Made by a program: the position numbers and the translations under genes
Part shown: positions 3,086 to 24,034 of the stretch, piece by piece
Position numbering within the stretch: the stretch's first letter is position 1
How the letters are laid out: every line of letters begins with the position of its first letter
The notes under the pieces: generated by a model
What the model saw: the letters and a program-made list of their open reading frames with translations, nothing else
Database searches by the model: none
What the model was told of the DNA's origin: nothing
DNA from: Clostridiaceae bacterium
GTDB taxonomy: Bacteria > Bacillota > Clostridia > DSM-8532
NCBI GenBank assembly: GCA_012520855.1
Contig: JAAYNO010000170.1
Span: forward strand, 1-33,061
DNA: 33,061 nt
Direction of reading: 5' to 3'

Positions 3086-4270
3086 TTGATACAGGTAAAG
3101 GATCAGATATACCATTTAGGCTTTCGGGATTGGGAACTAAGGAATTTCCACGGTCATGAGCTGTCTACCTTCCACGGCTCAAGTTATAATTCTTATTTGA
3201 TAAAGGATGAGAAAACAGTATTAGTTGATGCGGTATGGTCGCCGCACTCTGATGAGTATATGAACATTTTGGAAGAAGAAGTGGGGATCGACAATATTGA
3301 CTATATTATCATAAACCATTCGGAACCGGACCATTCAGGTACATTGGTTGAAATCATGGAGCTGCGTCCTGATATACCTATATACTGCTCGGTGAAGGGT
3401 GTGGAAACAATCAGGAAGCAATACCACAAAGATTGGAATTTCAGAGCCGTAAAAACCGGAGATACTCTTAATATTGGTAAGTACGAGCTTATGTTTGTTG
3501 ATATGACAATGATTCATTGGCCTGACAGTATGATGACATTCGTGAAGGGCCCCAATGTTCTTCTGTCTAATGATGCATTTGGACAGCACCTGGCTGGTGC
3601 TTCGATTTTTGAGGATGAGTTGGACGAGTGCATGGTATGGCAAGAAGCTATAAAATATTTTGCAAACATTTTGGCGCCTTTTACACCGCTTATCAAGAAG
3701 AAAATCGATGAGGTATTATCCCTGAATCTGCCCATAGAAATGATTGCGCCCAGTCATGGCGCTATATGGAGAAAAAATCCGTTGAGTATTGTGGAAAAAT
3801 ATGCCCAATGGTCTGATAATTATAACGAGGGCTATGTATCTATTATTTATGACACCATGTATAACGCTACAAAGAAGATGGCCGGTGCTATAGCAAAGGG
3901 GCTTGAAAGCAAGGGAGTTAAAAGCAAGCAGTTTAACAGCTCCTTATCCGATATGAGTGATTTGATAACTGAAGTATTCAAGTCAAAGGGCATGATAATA
4001 GGAAGCTGTACGGTCAACAGTGGCCCTTTGCGTTCAATTGCTGCTATCATGGCAGAGATCAGAGGGCATAAACTGAAAAATAAAGTAGGAGCGGCTTTTG
4101 GAAGCTACGGCTGGAGCGGGGAAGCTCATAAAAAGATTCATAAGGAACTGGAAGAAGCCGGTATCAAAGTTGTAATGGAGCCGATTTCGGTTAAATACCA
4201 ACCGGATGATGCAGAGCTTGATGCCTGCTTCCAGTTTGGGCGAGATTTTGCAAATTATTTAAAAAAATAA
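3086..4270 (+). CDS. FprA-type flavodiiron protein (oxygen or nitric oxide reductase)
   Basis: This 394-residue soluble protein belongs to the A-type flavoproteins, which use a diiron centre and FMN to reduce O2 to water, or NO to N2O, and so protect anaerobes. The N-terminal metallo-beta-lactamase-like domain (about 1-250) carries the diiron motif H78-x-E80-x-D82-H83, followed by SNDAFGQH and SHGAIWR, which hold later ligands. A flavodoxin domain fills roughly 255-394. Length and order match class A proteins with no extra rubredoxin domain. Translation starts at TTG, six bases after AGAGGTG; no better in-frame start is nearby. Whether O2 or NO is the main substrate cannot be read from the sequence. 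Confidence 0.93.
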   Translation: MIQVKDQIYHLGFRDWELRNFHGHELSTFHGSSYNSYLIKDEKTVLVDAVWSPHSDEYMNILEEEVGIDNIDYIIINHSEPDHSGTLVEIMELRPDIPIYCSVKGVETIRKQYHKDWNFRAVKTGDTLNIGKYELMFVDMTMIHWPDSMMTFVKGPNVLLSNDAFGQHLAGASIFEDELDECMVWQEAIKYFANILAPFTPLIKKKIDEVLSLNLPIEMIAPSHGAIWRKNPLSIVEKYAQWSDNYNEGYVSIIYDTMYNATKKMAGAIAKGLESKGVKSKQFNSSLSDMSDLITEVFKSKGMIIGSCTVNSGPLRSIAAIMAEIRGHKLKNKVGAAFGSYGWSGEAHKKIHKELEEAGIKVVMEPISVKYQPDDAELDACFQFGRDFANYLKK

Positions 4271-4321
4271 GTTCTGTCATTAAGCGTCCGTATATCGGAT
4301 TATTCGCATTTTTGGGCTTTG

Positions 4322-17514: not shown

Positions 17515-17700
17515 AAGCGTGCAAGGGGTGTTTCAACAATTTCCCCTTGACACACAGAATGCTTAATAGGGAATCGGGTGAGAAGCCCGGGCTGTCCCAG
17601 CAACCGTGAAGCTGACGAAATGGCGTATACCACTGCTTATTTGCGGGAAGGTGCCATGGAGGATGAAGCAAAGCCGGTAGACCTGCCGTGATGAAGTGTT
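17515..17700 (+). ncRNA. Adenosylcobalamin riboswitch
   Basis: The conserved core is clear: AATAGGGAATCGGGTGAGA, CCCGGGCTGTCCCAGCAACC, CCACTG, GCGGGAAGG and the B12 box GCCGGTAGACCTGCC (near 17675-17689). The order and spacing match the cobalamin riboswitch family. It precedes an intrinsic terminator and a corrinoid ABC importer, so high cobalamin should stop transcription. The outer boundaries (P1) are approximate. Confidence 0.95.
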
Positions 17701-17748
17701 TCTTCTGGGGTTTAAGAGTTTACTATGGGATAATTTACCATGTAATGC

Positions 17749-17832: not shown

Positions 17833-18735
17833 ATGAAAAAACATTTTATTGTATCAGTAATTCTCACACTTATTTTCCTTGTGACAGGCTGTTCACAGCC
17901 ACAGCAGCCCGGTTCTTCCCTGGTTCTTCCGGACAGCAGAGGTGTAGAAATAACCTTTGATAAAATCCCTGAAAGTGTAGTTTCGTTAGCTCCGGCAAAC
18001 ACCGAAATACTATATGCGCTGAATGCCGGAGACAAAATAATTGCAGTAAGCGAATACTGTAATTACCCCGAGGAGATTGCCAACAAAACAAAGCTGCCCA
18101 CCGGCGAGAAGCTTGATATTGAAAATCTGATAGCATTAAAACCCGACTTGGTCATCACAGGGTATATGTCAGCTATGGAGGATCAATTCAGGCAGTTGGA
18201 AACTGCAGGAATAAAAGTATTTGTGACTGAAGCCAACAGTCTTTCTGAGACCTATGAGACAATTGAAGCAATAGGCAAAATCATCGGTAAGGAAAAAGAA
18301 GCAGACACACTTATCAAAAATATGAAAGATGGGTTTGACAATATAATTAAAGAGGTTGAGGGAAAGGCATCACCCACTATTTATGTTGAGGTCTCACCTT
18401 TGGAATGGGGCTTGTGGACTTGCGGCAAAAACACCTTTATTCAGGAGCTTATTGATATAGTCGGGGCAAGGAATATCTTCGAGGATGTGGAAGGCTGGGC
18501 TGAGGTATCAGAGGAACAGGTCATTTCAAAAAATCCGGACTTTATTGTAACAACTTCAAGTCCCTTGACAGGGATAGAGGATCCTATCGGTGAGATTTCA
18601 TCAAGAGCCAATTGGAGCGGTTTGGATGCAGTTAAAAATTCAAGGATCATGATGCTTGAATCAGACATGATAACCCGTCCCGGTCCCAGACTTTTGGATG
18701 CGGCAAAAGAATTGACAAAAATACTATACGATTGA
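17833..18735 (+). CDS. Corrinoid ABC transporter substrate-binding lipoprotein (BtuF-like)
   Basis: This 300-residue protein begins with a lipoprotein signal (KK, hydrophobic core, LVTGC with lipidated C20), so it is anchored outside the membrane. The mature part is a class III periplasmic-binding fold: VVSLAPANTEILYALNAGDKI and KPDLVITG are typical of BtuF/FecB proteins. The first gene behind a cobalamin riboswitch, and the only binding protein with this permease and ATPase, it most likely binds B12 or cobinamide. Without that context an iron siderophore would be the other option. GAAAGGAG precedes the ATG. Confidence 0.9.
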   Translation: MKKHFIVSVILTLIFLVTGCSQPQQPGSSLVLPDSRGVEITFDKIPESVVSLAPANTEILYALNAGDKIIAVSEYCNYPEEIANKTKLPTGEKLDIENLIALKPDLVITGYMSAMEDQFRQLETAGIKVFVTEANSLSETYETIEAIGKIIGKEKEADTLIKNMKDGFDNIIKEVEGKASPTIYVEVSPLEWGLWTCGKNTFIQELIDIVGARNIFEDVEGWAEVSEEQVISKNPDFIVTTSSPLTGIEDPIGEISSRANWSGLDAVKNSRIMMLESDMITRPGPRLLDAAKELTKILYD

Positions 18736-20661: not shown

Positions 20662-21258
20662 ATGGAGCATTATTATACCGAAAGGCCTCGCTCTGAGATA
20701 AAAGAGAATAACTTCAGCTATGAGATAAAGGGAATAAAACTGAACTTTGTTTCAGTAAGCGGCGTTTTCGCGTTCGGTGACAGGATCGACAAGGCATCCC
20801 GGCTTCTGATTGAGAATTTCAGACCTTCGGGAGCAAGTAACTTTGTTCTCGACGTAGGCTGCGGATTTGGGCCCATTGCCCTTTACATCAAGCACCGATA
20901 TCCTCATTTGCAGGTGACCGGAGTGGATATCAACGAAAGGGCTGTTGAGTATACAAAAATCAATGCCAGAAAAAATAATCTTGGCATTGAAGTTCTTAAA
21001 AGTGATCTTTATGAGGGTCTTCATGGAAGGAACTTCGGGGATATTGTATCAAATCCTCCTATAGCCGCCGGAAAAGCTTTAAACACAAGACTGATTACAG
21101 AAGCCCGCGAGCATCTTATAAAAAATGGGGCTTTTTGGCTGGTCGCTTTTCATAATAAGGGCGGCAAAACCCTTAAGAAGATTATGAATGAGGTTTTCGG
21201 GAACGTGGAGGATATAGAAAAAAGCGGAGGAATCCGGGTGTACCGGTCAATTTTTTGA
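20662..21258 (+). CDS. Class I SAM-dependent methyltransferase, RsmC-like
   Basis: This 198-residue protein has the class I methyltransferase fold: DVGCGFGPIALYI (64-76) binds SAM, GVDINERAV (87-95) follows, and SNPPIAAG (130-137) is the NPPY-like catalytic motif of base N-methyltransferases. It resembles the catalytic half of 16S rRNA G1207 methyltransferase RsmC. The short version without a pseudo-domain is common in Firmicutes. It starts four bases after the ATPase gene and so falls under the cobalamin riboswitch. Its target here is not shown; a corrinoid-linked substrate is conceivable but less likely than rRNA. Confidence 0.88.
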   Translation: MEHYYTERPRSEIKENNFSYEIKGIKLNFVSVSGVFAFGDRIDKASRLLIENFRPSGASNFVLDVGCGFGPIALYIKHRYPHLQVTGVDINERAVEYTKINARKNNLGIEVLKSDLYEGLHGRNFGDIVSNPPIAAGKALNTRLITEAREHLIKNGAFWLVAFHNKGGKTLKKIMNEVFGNVEDIEKSGGIRVYRSIF

Positions 21259-21262
21259 ACAC

Positions 21263-21484
21263 AAGTGGACGGTTCGAAATTACTGAAAAAGTCCGGGTTT
21301 TGTCATTCTGAATGAAGCGAAGCGGAATGAAGAATCTTAAAACCCGCATAATCAGCTAATAAGATTCTTCGCTACGCTCAGAATGACATCTAAGGAACGA
21401 CTTTTTCAGCAGTTTCGGACGGTTCCTCTGTGCACTTCTAATAAGGTTTCTTCTGTGTAGAGAGCACAGAGGAACCGTCCACTT
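21263..21484. repeat. GGACGGTTC palindromic element, split by an insertion
   Basis: AAGTGGACGGTTC (21263-21275) is the exact inverse of 21472-21484, and GGACGGTTCCTCTGTGC (21417-21433) is the exact inverse of 21464-21480. Removing the insertion and one target copy joins these into one perfect 21-bp stem around a 30-base loop. TTTACTCATT follows, as after the related element ending at 14557. Confidence 0.8.
21276..21416. mobile_element. 141-bp miniature inverted-repeat element (MITE) with 9-bp target duplication
   Basis: The element begins GAAATTACTGAAAAAGTC and ends GACTTTTTCAGCAGTTTC; these 18-base termini are inverted repeats matching at 16 positions. Inside, TCATTCTGAATGAAGCGAAG and GAATCTT face CTACGCTCAGAATGACA in a second long hairpin. 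GGACGGTTC directly flanks both sides (21267-21275 and 21417-21425), a 9-bp target duplication. There is no transposase, so it would be moved in trans. Confidence 0.8.
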
Positions 21485-21640: not shown

Positions 21641-24034
21641 ATGAGATACGGATATTTCGATAATTCTAAAAGGGAGTATGTGATTGAAAGACCCGATATC
21701 CCCGTGTCATGGACCAATTACCTTGGAGTCAGGGATTTTTGCACCGTTATTTCTCATAATGCAGGAGGGTATTCATTTTATAAATCAGCCCAGCATCGCA
21801 GGCTTACACGATTCAGACCTAATGCTATTCCTTTGGACAGACCCGGTCATTATGTTTATTTGAGGGACGATGATACTGCTGATTACTGGTCGGTTTCCTG
21901 GCAGCCTGTCGGCAAGCCTCTTGACCAGGCAAAATACCAGTGCCGTCATGGATTGTCATACTCTCGATTTTCCTGTGATTATGCTGATATCCAGGCAGAA
22001 CAGACACTTTTTGTTCCAGTCGACGACGATGTTGAGCTTTGGGATGTGAAGATTATCAATAAAAGCGACAGGCCGCGTAATCTCAGCATTTTTTCCTATG
22101 TGGAGTTTTCATTCAATCTTATTGATATCGATAACCAGAATTTCCAAATGAGCCTTTATTGCAGCGGTTCAAGCTTTGATGACGGGATAATCGAATTTGA
22201 CCAATTCTATGACCCCGGGTCCTTTACATATATGGCTGCAAATTTCATTCCGGATAGCTTTGACGCTTTAAGAGACAAATTCATTGGTCCCTACAGGACA
22301 GAAACAAATCCAATAGGTGTTGAAAACGGCATCTTAAGCGGCAGTACCGAACTGGGCAACAACCACTGCGGAGGATTGCACAAAAAAATCACAATAAAGC
22401 CCGGAGAAGAAAAGCGGGTTCTTTTCCTTTTAGGTGTCGGGAACAGGGCAGCAGGAAAGGCCATGAGAGAGAAATATTCCGATTTTTCCAAGGTGGATGA
22501 AGCCTTTGACAATCTGACAGCATACTGGGATAAAAAACTGTCTGCCTTCCAGTGCGATACGCCTAATGAAGGCATGAATACAATGCTGAATATATGGAAT
22601 CTGTATCAGGCCGAGACTAATGTAGTCTGGTCAAGGTTTGCTTCATTCATAGAGGTTGGAGGAAGAACCGGTCTGGGGTATCGCGATACTGCTCAGGATA
22701 CGATGTGTGTACCTCATACTAACAAAGAAAAATGCCGCCAGAGAATCATCGAGCTTTTGCGCGGTCAGGTAAACGAAGGTTATGGCCTTCACCTTTTTGA
22801 TCCCGAATGGTTTAATCCCCATAAAACAGAAACCAAGTTCAAATCCCCAACAGTAGTGCCGACTCCTGACGCGAAGGACATGATCCATGGAATAGAAGAT
22901 ACCTGCTCAGATGATGCGCTCTGGCTTGTACCGTCCATTCTTGAATATGTGGCTGAAACAGGTGAGGAAAGCTTTTTTGATGAAATAGTGACCTTTGCTG
23001 ACGGAGGAGAGGCATCGGTTTATGAGCACATAAAACGAATCCTGGACTTCTCTGCCGAACAGGTCGGCCCGACTGGAATCTGTAAGGGACTTCGGGCTGA
23101 CTGGAATGACTGCCTGAATCTTGGCGGGGGCGAAAGCGCATTAGTTTCCTTCCTGCACTATTGGGCTATCCAAGCCTTTTTGGATATTGCCCGTTATTTA
23201 GGGAAAAACGAGGATGTCGAACACTATGAGAAAATAGCTGAGAAGGTAAAAGCGGCATGTGAGACTCACCTCTGGGACGGTAAATGGTATATCCGCGGAA
23301 TAACCGCTAAAGGTGATAAGATAGGAACTCATACCGATGCTGAGGGAAAGGTCCATCTGGAATCAAACACTTGGGCCGTTATTTCGGGTTGTGCTTCTTA
23401 TGATAGGGCCATATCTTGTATGGATGCCGTAGATGAGTATCTGTATTCAGATTTTGGTCTCCATCTCAACGCTCCATCCTACAGTAAGCCAAATGATGAT
23501 ATTGGCTTTATAACCCGTGTATATAAAGGTATAAAGGAAAATGGAGCTATATTCAGTCATCCAAACCCCTGGGCTTGGGTTGCCGAGTGCAAGCTGGGAA
23601 GAGGCGACAGGGCCATGAAATTCTATAACGCCTTACTGCCCTACAATCAGAACGATATGATCGAGATTCGTGAAGCAGAGCCATATTCCTACTGCCAGTT
23701 CATCATGGGCAGGGATCACACCGCCCATGGCAGGGCAAGACATCCATGGCTGACAGGAAGCGCAGGATGGGCTTACTTCGCCGCGACCCATTATATGCTT
23801 GGAGTGAGGCTGTCTTTAAAGGGACTCATTGTAGACCCATGCATCCCTTCCGATTGGGAAGGATTCAGTGTTAAAAGGCGGTGGAGAGGAGCTTATTATA
23901 ATATTATAGTAAAAAATCCCGATAAAGTCTCAAAAGGTGTGAAAACTATTTTGCTGAACGGTAAGCCCATTTCAGGTCCAGTTCCGCCCCAGGAAGAGGG
24001 AAGTATTAATGTGGTAGAAGTTGTAATGGGTTAA
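21641..24034 (+). CDS. GH94 disaccharide phosphorylase, N,N'-diacetylchitobiose phosphorylase type
   Basis: This 797-residue GH94 enzyme breaks a beta-linked disaccharide with phosphate, giving a sugar-1-phosphate and a free sugar. The catalytic general acid is D487 in RADWNDCLNLGGGES. Segments such as NYLGVRDFCTVISHNAGGYS, FASFIEVGGRTGLGYRDTAQ, CSDDALWLVP and SHPNPWAWVAE agree, from memory of the family, with Vibrio chitobiose phosphorylase and less with cellobiose phosphorylases, which have GIGRGMGFRDSNQD instead. The substrate is therefore likely (GlcNAc)2, but cellobiose cannot be excluded. AAAGGGTGT precedes the ATG. No signal peptide, so it is cytoplasmic. A phosphohexomutase follows after 76 bases. 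Confidence 0.88.
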   Translation: MRYGYFDNSKREYVIERPDIPVSWTNYLGVRDFCTVISHNAGGYSFYKSAQHRRLTRFRPNAIPLDRPGHYVYLRDDDTADYWSVSWQPVGKPLDQAKYQCRHGLSYSRFSCDYADIQAEQTLFVPVDDDVELWDVKIINKSDRPRNLSIFSYVEFSFNLIDIDNQNFQMSLYCSGSSFDDGIIEFDQFYDPGSFTYMAANFIPDSFDALRDKFIGPYRTETNPIGVENGILSGSTELGNNHCGGLHKKITIKPGEEKRVLFLLGVGNRAAGKAMREKYSDFSKVDEAFDNLTAYWDKKLSAFQCDTPNEGMNTMLNIWNLYQAETNVVWSRFASFIEVGGRTGLGYRDTAQDTMCVPHTNKEKCRQRIIELLRGQVNEGYGLHLFDPEWFNPHKTETKFKSPTVVPTPDAKDMIHGIEDTCSDDALWLVPSILEYVAETGEESFFDEIVTFADGGEASVYEHIKRILDFSAEQVGPTGICKGLRADWNDCLNLGGGESALVSFLHYWAIQAFLDIARYLGKNEDVEHYEKIAEKVKAACETHLWDGKWYIRGITAKGDKIGTHTDAEGKVHLESNTWAVISGCASYDRAISCMDAVDEYLYSDFGLHLNAPSYSKPNDDIGFITRVYKGIKENGAIFSHPNPWAWVAECKLGRGDRAMKFYNALLPYNQNDMIEIREAEPYSYCQFIMGRDHTAHGRARHPWLTGSAGWAYFAATHYMLGVRLSLKGLIVDPCIPSDWEGFSVKRRWRGAYYNIIVKNPDKVSKGVKTILLNGKPISGPVPPQEEGSINVVEVVMG

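Follow-up and report, generated by a model that had tools for sequence, protein, structure and literature searches.

The spacer between two genes of the window (the whole 33,061-nucleotide stretch of a Clostridiaceae bacterium that was analysed) contains a 141-bp unit lodged within a palindromic repeat, which raises the question of what this unit is, which transposase moved it and what marks the site at which it landed. A first-pass annotation had proposed a nested insertion with a definite order of events, exact element ends and a 9-bp target duplication. The features of the locus are as follows:

20662..21258, + strand: upstream neighbour, small-domain methyltransferase (MTS, PF05175)
21260..21432, no strand: interrupted palindromic unit CACAAGT-GGACGGTTC-CTCTGTG, with halves at 21260-21275 and 21417-21432
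21267..21275, + strand: left copy of the 9-bp target duplication GGACGGTTC, directly adjoining the element
21276..21416, + strand: non-autonomous 141-bp element (MITE) with IS1182-type ends; copies in its own genome, ends and target common to full-length IS1182 elements
21276..21293, + strand: left terminal inverted repeat GAAATTACTGAAAAAGTC
21301..21388, + strand: MITE interior, a copy of an independent dispersed repeat (TGTCATTCTGA...GAATCTT...TCAGAATGACA), with the core alone in genus genomes
21399..21416, - strand: right terminal inverted repeat GAAACTGCTGAAAAAGTC, read on the - strand
21417..21425, + strand: right copy of the 9-bp target duplication GGACGGTTC, directly adjoining the element
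21464..21484, - strand: 3' arm GCACAGAGGAACCGTCCACTT, a second palindromic unit in inverted orientation
21641..24034, + strand: downstream neighbour, glycoside hydrolase family 94 (PF17167)

Structure of the inserted element

The stop codon of the methyltransferase gene falls just ahead of the palindrome. The two 18-bp ends of the inserted unit, GAAATTACTGAAAAAGTC and GAAACTGCTGAAAAAGTC (as reverse complement), are identical at 16 of 18 positions. Removal of the element together with one 9-mer joins 21263-21275 to 21426-21433 and yields AAGTGGACGGTTCCTCTGTGC, which pairs perfectly over 21 bp with the segment at 21464-21484. There is no ORF of 100 aa or more inside the element, and with its short length, lack of coding capacity, terminal inverted repeats, many dispersed copies and target duplications it has the attributes of a MITE. 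An Rfam search gave no match at the 141-bp element; elsewhere in the window, a cobalamin riboswitch (RF00174, 78 bits) lies at 17531-17704, upstream of an ORF at 17833.

Sister genomes that lack the terminal repeats contain many copies of the core repeat that makes up the interior of the element, and it is also found on cyanobacterial plasmids of Planktothrix, Calothrix and Tolypothrix; when the plasmid collection was searched with the MITE, the match was limited to this core, in cyanobacteria. Since the core occurs independently of the terminal repeats, three levels of nesting can be recognized, namely a dispersed repeat within IS1182-type ends, which in turn lie within a REP-like palindrome.

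Copies in the host genome and the nature of the flanking 9-mers

The first-pass annotation had called for a search of the host genome, and this draft assembly (2.33 Mb in 268 contigs) proved to contain about 30 copies and fragments of the 141-bp element, with up to 99% identity. Their boundaries are constant, which bears out the proposed element ends; neither variable boundaries nor a lack of other copies with these ends, the two outcomes that had been named as counter-evidence, was encountered. Several contigs (L002, L008, L009, L011 and L017) end inside MITE copies, which makes this number a minimum. All ends carrying the MITE interior were read, giving 39 distinct ends. The adjoining 9-mer matches the consensus GRACSGTYC exactly at 17 of them, with at most one mismatch at 31 and with at most two at 36, leaving three that do not fit, against a window background of 0.05% of positions for up to one mismatch and 0.5% for up to two. 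The association is not due to chance, and the excess over background at one mismatch indicates that the 9-mer, besides being the duplicated target sequence, is also the sequence preferred for insertion.

Among the ten two-ended MITE copies, the 9-mers of the two sides are identical in five, differ by one base in four and by three in one. The presence of a nearly self-complementary 9-mer at almost every end might be taken to mean that it belongs to an extended terminal inverted repeat of 27 bp, with no target duplication. We rejected this reading, which is extremely improbable, on comparing the flanks in both orientations: over 18 two-ended MITE and IS copies, they mismatch at 9/162 positions as direct repeats versus 57/162 as inverted repeats, and this far better direct agreement identifies them as target duplications, as originally claimed. 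Furthermore, the rare variants AAACGGTTC and GCACCGTTC are found on both sides of one copy, uninterrupted palindromes such as the one described below (L143) have a single 9-mer, and the duplications of related elements are unrelated in sequence.

The palindromic target

The element preferentially enters the middle of a REP-like palindrome, of the form CACAAGTGGACGGTTCCTCTGTG, rather than an incidental host site. The GRACSGTYC consensus is self-complementary, and uninterrupted sites of this kind in the host genome mostly form the exact centre of a palindrome, typically AATGAGTAWAGG-GGACGGTCC-TCTTTACTCATT; just about five of the sampled sites are non-palindromic, too few for a comparison of sequence versus structure. 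Three more uninterrupted sites are present in the window itself (14388, 14516 and 14548), and the longer pattern GGRACSGTYCY gives 149 matches in the host genome versus 14 for the reversed control. The palindrome is thus short, dispersed and present in many copies, as is characteristic of REPs. The first-pass annotation had emphasized the 21-bp stem. This stem is real, but the 9-mer sits within one of its arms, and the target unit instead looks like the small palindrome CACA-AGT-GGACGGTTC-CTC-TGTG, centred on the 9-mer. The palindrome arms vary by copy and by genome, with TGAGTA in the host genome, TGTGCA in the sister genome G007, and CACAG, ACCAGA and TTGTCA also being seen, and the varying arms remain self-complementary around the constant central 9-mer.

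Empty sites equivalent to the predicted pre-insertion sequence were sought both within and outside the host genome. The host genome contains a paralogue of the window site that has not been interrupted (L143, contig C72, positions 4090-4280). Its AACACAAGTGGACGGTTCCTCTGTGCACT is identical, with 29/29 nucleotides matching over the predicted junction, and the second palindromic unit, in inverted orientation, is retained as well. The nested insertion and the proposed order of events are upheld. The orthologous site could not be aligned: the spacer of G007 (L107), which has related palindromes and the core repeat without the MITE, is too rearranged for alignment across the junction, and in the other members of the genus the palindromes are absent from the corresponding spacer.

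Both in the host genome (L062, contig C201) and in G007 (L061, contig C69), palindrome copies flank a single-copy Y1_Tnp (RAYT-like) gene, and this gene could be invoked for a scenario in which the palindrome and the 141-bp unit form one composite repeat, spread together by a RAYT/Y1 transposase or the like, with no separate insertion. We find this scarcely credible, given that the palindromes far outnumber the MITE and are mostly uninterrupted, and that the MITE is found in host palindromes with a constant centre and different arms (CACAG, ACCAGA and TGAGTA). Nor does the presence of Y1_Tnp track the palindromes: the palindromes occur in G003, which has no such gene, and the gene occurs in G001 and G002, which have no palindromes.

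Full-length IS1182 elements and the source of the transposase

A class-wide search was made with a pattern spanning the junction of target and element end (GTYC followed by GAAAYTRCTGAAAAAG), the reversed pattern serving as a control. In other families of the class, this junction gave 40, 29 and 27 matches in the genomes G095, G191 and G232, respectively, and the control gave 0-2. In G232 there are five full-length copies of 1705-1717 bp with the same ends and identical 9-bp duplications (GGACGGTTC or GAACCGTCC), along with a sixth (L182) whose flanks are unequal. Their transposase of 516 aa contains the Pfam domains DUF772 and DDE_Tnp_1 and scores 373.5 bits with the IS1182 model NF033551, for which the cut-off is 270. 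A similar 1.70-kb element in G369 encodes an intact transposase of 511 aa and is flanked by slightly unequal 9-mers. It is from such full-length elements of the class, alike in ends and target, that the transposase family is identified as IS1182. With these 1.70-kb members the 141-bp element shares GARRCCACTGAAAAA-type ends (the terminal repeats being GAAACCACTGAAAAA in the MITE and GAAAYTRCTGAAAAA in the full-length elements), the 9-bp duplication and the GRACSGTYC target; the ends are all that the elements themselves have in common, as the MITE is devoid of the transposase gene and its interior is an unrelated repeat.

A 289-bp element in G117 (L175) has these same ends, is flanked by a perfect duplication of GGACGGTTC, and retains the first 46 codons of an IS1182 transposase, with 56% identity over 45 aa; it is a deletion derivative, a step between the IS and the MITE. 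The Sporomusa termitida plasmid pSPTER carries a split transposase that is 52% identical, and the left end there adjoins GAACCGTCC. A search of the phage collection gave no match. On the whole, we consider it highly probable that the 141-bp element is a non-autonomous MITE that owes its mobility to a DDE transposase of the IS1182 family, and that this enzyme inserts it centrally in a palindrome or hairpin with a stagger of 9 bp.

Duplications of 9 bp are also typical of the IS4/IS10/IS50 and IS5 types, and one of these could have moved the MITE if its IS1182-like ends were convergent. Such an origin would be in keeping with the MITE interior, which is unlike that of the IS1182 copies, and with a DDE_Tnp_1 fragment in the host genome. 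It is nevertheless quite unlikely, because end sequence, target and duplication length all coincide with those of the full-length IS1182 elements and of L175, and because the DDE_Tnp_1 locus of the host genome (L093) is without the ends. This locus and seven DDE_Tnp_1 loci in the genus, which likewise lack the ends, were ruled out as the mover.

A transposase of the IS1182 type seen in G232 was not found in the draft genome of the host, or in the genus or order as sampled. The full-length IS with the same termini, which the first-pass annotation had anticipated, thus exists in other genomes of the class and was not recovered from closer relatives. In the host the mover is absent, lost or unassembled, several of the 268 contigs ending in MITE copies. 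This distribution leads us to infer that an IS1182 transposase acts on the MITE in trans.

Insertion at hairpin centres in more distant relatives

More distant IS1182 members on named plasmids, with 33-35% identity and ends such as GAGGCCACTGAAAAAG, are inserted in hairpins resembling transcription terminators. The hosts are Peptoclostridium, Metabacillus, Priestia and Enterococcus (two sites), in addition to a plasmid labelled as Bacteroides. The 8-9 bp duplicated at these sites (GCTTTCGGC, GGATTTTG, GTAAAAAC, GAAAAACTC, TCTTTTGA and GTTTTAAAA) have no common sequence; they lie within 0.5 nt of the hairpin centre at all six independent sites, and the reconstructed sites fold better than shuffled sequences (z -2.6 to -9.8). 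These observations suggest that IS1182 elements of this group aim at the tips of DNA hairpins. The reconstructed window site has a moderate z of -3.1, and the 9-mer is off-centre in its lowest-energy fold; folding of the G232 site is weak (z -1.6). Given these weak or off-centre folds, it is the relatives and the symmetry of the site that point to hairpin recognition in the GRACSGTYC clade. Still more distant members, of the ISBspe1 type, are also situated in hairpins; their apical repeats are larger and, being self-complementary, have limits that cannot be fixed. Among the more distant relatives, L203, L204, L207, L212 and L213 show no clear duplication of 8-9 bp at the apex, and L208, L210, L211, L214 and L215 have such larger, self-complementary apical repeats without definable ends.

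Proposed mechanism

Under the mechanism proposed here, an IS1182-family transposase would recognise the GAAAYYRCTGAAAAAGT ends and place the element in the middle of a small palindrome or hairpin, and its 9-bp stagger would leave the apical 9-mer copied on both sides. The usual landing site in the lineage of the window is the REP-like repeat centred on GRACSGTYC, and more distant IS1182 relatives apply the same geometry to terminator-like hairpins of unrelated sequence. The transposase may recognise its target in the form of an extruded hairpin, or bind as a dimer to a symmetric site. The second option in its strict form, with the same IS1182 MITE, a transposase dimer bound to the symmetric sequence GRACSGTYC and hairpin formation irrelevant, is one to which we give tentative credence, somewhat short of even. 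The symmetric primary sequence is very strongly constrained in the GRACSGTYC clade, the G232 target folds weakly, and IS10 prefers a symmetric 9-bp target site. It accounts poorly for the relatives with ends of the same type, which use unrelated 9-mers that are always hairpin-centred, and for the targets of IS1272, which have no common sequence (PMC5678879, PMC4923244).

Hairpin recognition can also be framed more broadly, in a scenario on which our confidence is evenly poised. Here, a branch of the IS1182 family would choose its targets by hairpin geometry and join at the loop edge, thereby duplicating the apex. In Clostridia it would have specialised on one REP family, with MITEs and REPs forming a stable nested parasite system whose landing sites are ready-made and mostly harmless.

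Relationship to known systems

IS1272 and TnSha1 of staphylococci, which belong to the IS1182 family, similarly have an inverted repeat or terminator hairpin as their target, and delete the target DNA with neither sequence preference nor duplication (PMC5678879, PMC4923244). Whereas the hairpin is deleted or replaced in those cases, here the apex is duplicated and its sequence is nearly fixed in this clade; the duplications of 9 bp in the clade and 8-9 bp in the plasmid relatives set both apart from IS1272-type replacement. Wan et al. (2017) drew, but did not observe, an alternative route whereby the loop would be duplicated through joining at its edges, and the apex-duplication pattern is the prediction of that pathway. 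According to a review cited in this literature (Siguier et al. 2015), some IS1182 members target palindromic sequences. Our searches of the open literature for IS1182 with MITE or palindrome found no report of the present pattern, and a search with the 9-mer returned nothing relevant. Hairpin-targeting IS1182 elements are known; those described here add apex duplication and REP specificity.

Tobes and Pareja described the targeting of REPs by members of the IS3, IS110, IS4, IS256 and IS5 families, with IS1182 and MITEs absent from their account (PMC1525189). The elements concerned are ISPsy8, ISPa11, ISPpu9, ISPpu10, ISRm22, IS1397 and IS621, of which ISRm22 is inserted on the axis of the palindrome, with repeats of 6 bp (PMC1525189). 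The present case resembles these in that insertion recurs at one and the same point of a dispersed palindrome, and differs in that none of them is an IS1182 member, the mobile unit here is a MITE and the duplication is of 9 bp. The likeness to REP/RAYT systems lies in the dispersed palindromes and in the Y1_Tnp gene between copies in two genomes; however, this association is inconsistent across the genus, and the arms vary around a constant central 9-mer.

With these observations, the IS1182 family gains a clear 8-9-bp duplication at hairpin centres, a feature that IS1272, the member studied best, is reported to lack, and the position of the duplication makes hairpin (cruciform) recognition directly testable. 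IS1182 elements and their MITEs also join the transposons that use REP-like palindromes as landing sites, which accounts for the occurrence in genomes of Clostridia of palindromic repeats nested in this way.

Variant elements

A MITE subtype (L012, L013, L020, L021 and L025) has half of the core swapped for a GAACATACAAAGTATGTTC hairpin segment, and its two-ended copies are 162-164 bp long. A 142-bp MITE in G095 (L176, contig C12, 68250-68700) has the GGACGGTTC palindrome in its own interior, and a single GGACGGTCC is common to it and a neighbouring MITE, as if the element carried its own landing sites. An element of 54 bp in G191 (L177, contig C1, 274450-274800) comprises barely more than two terminal repeats and is flanked by a perfect 9-bp duplication, GGACTGTTC.
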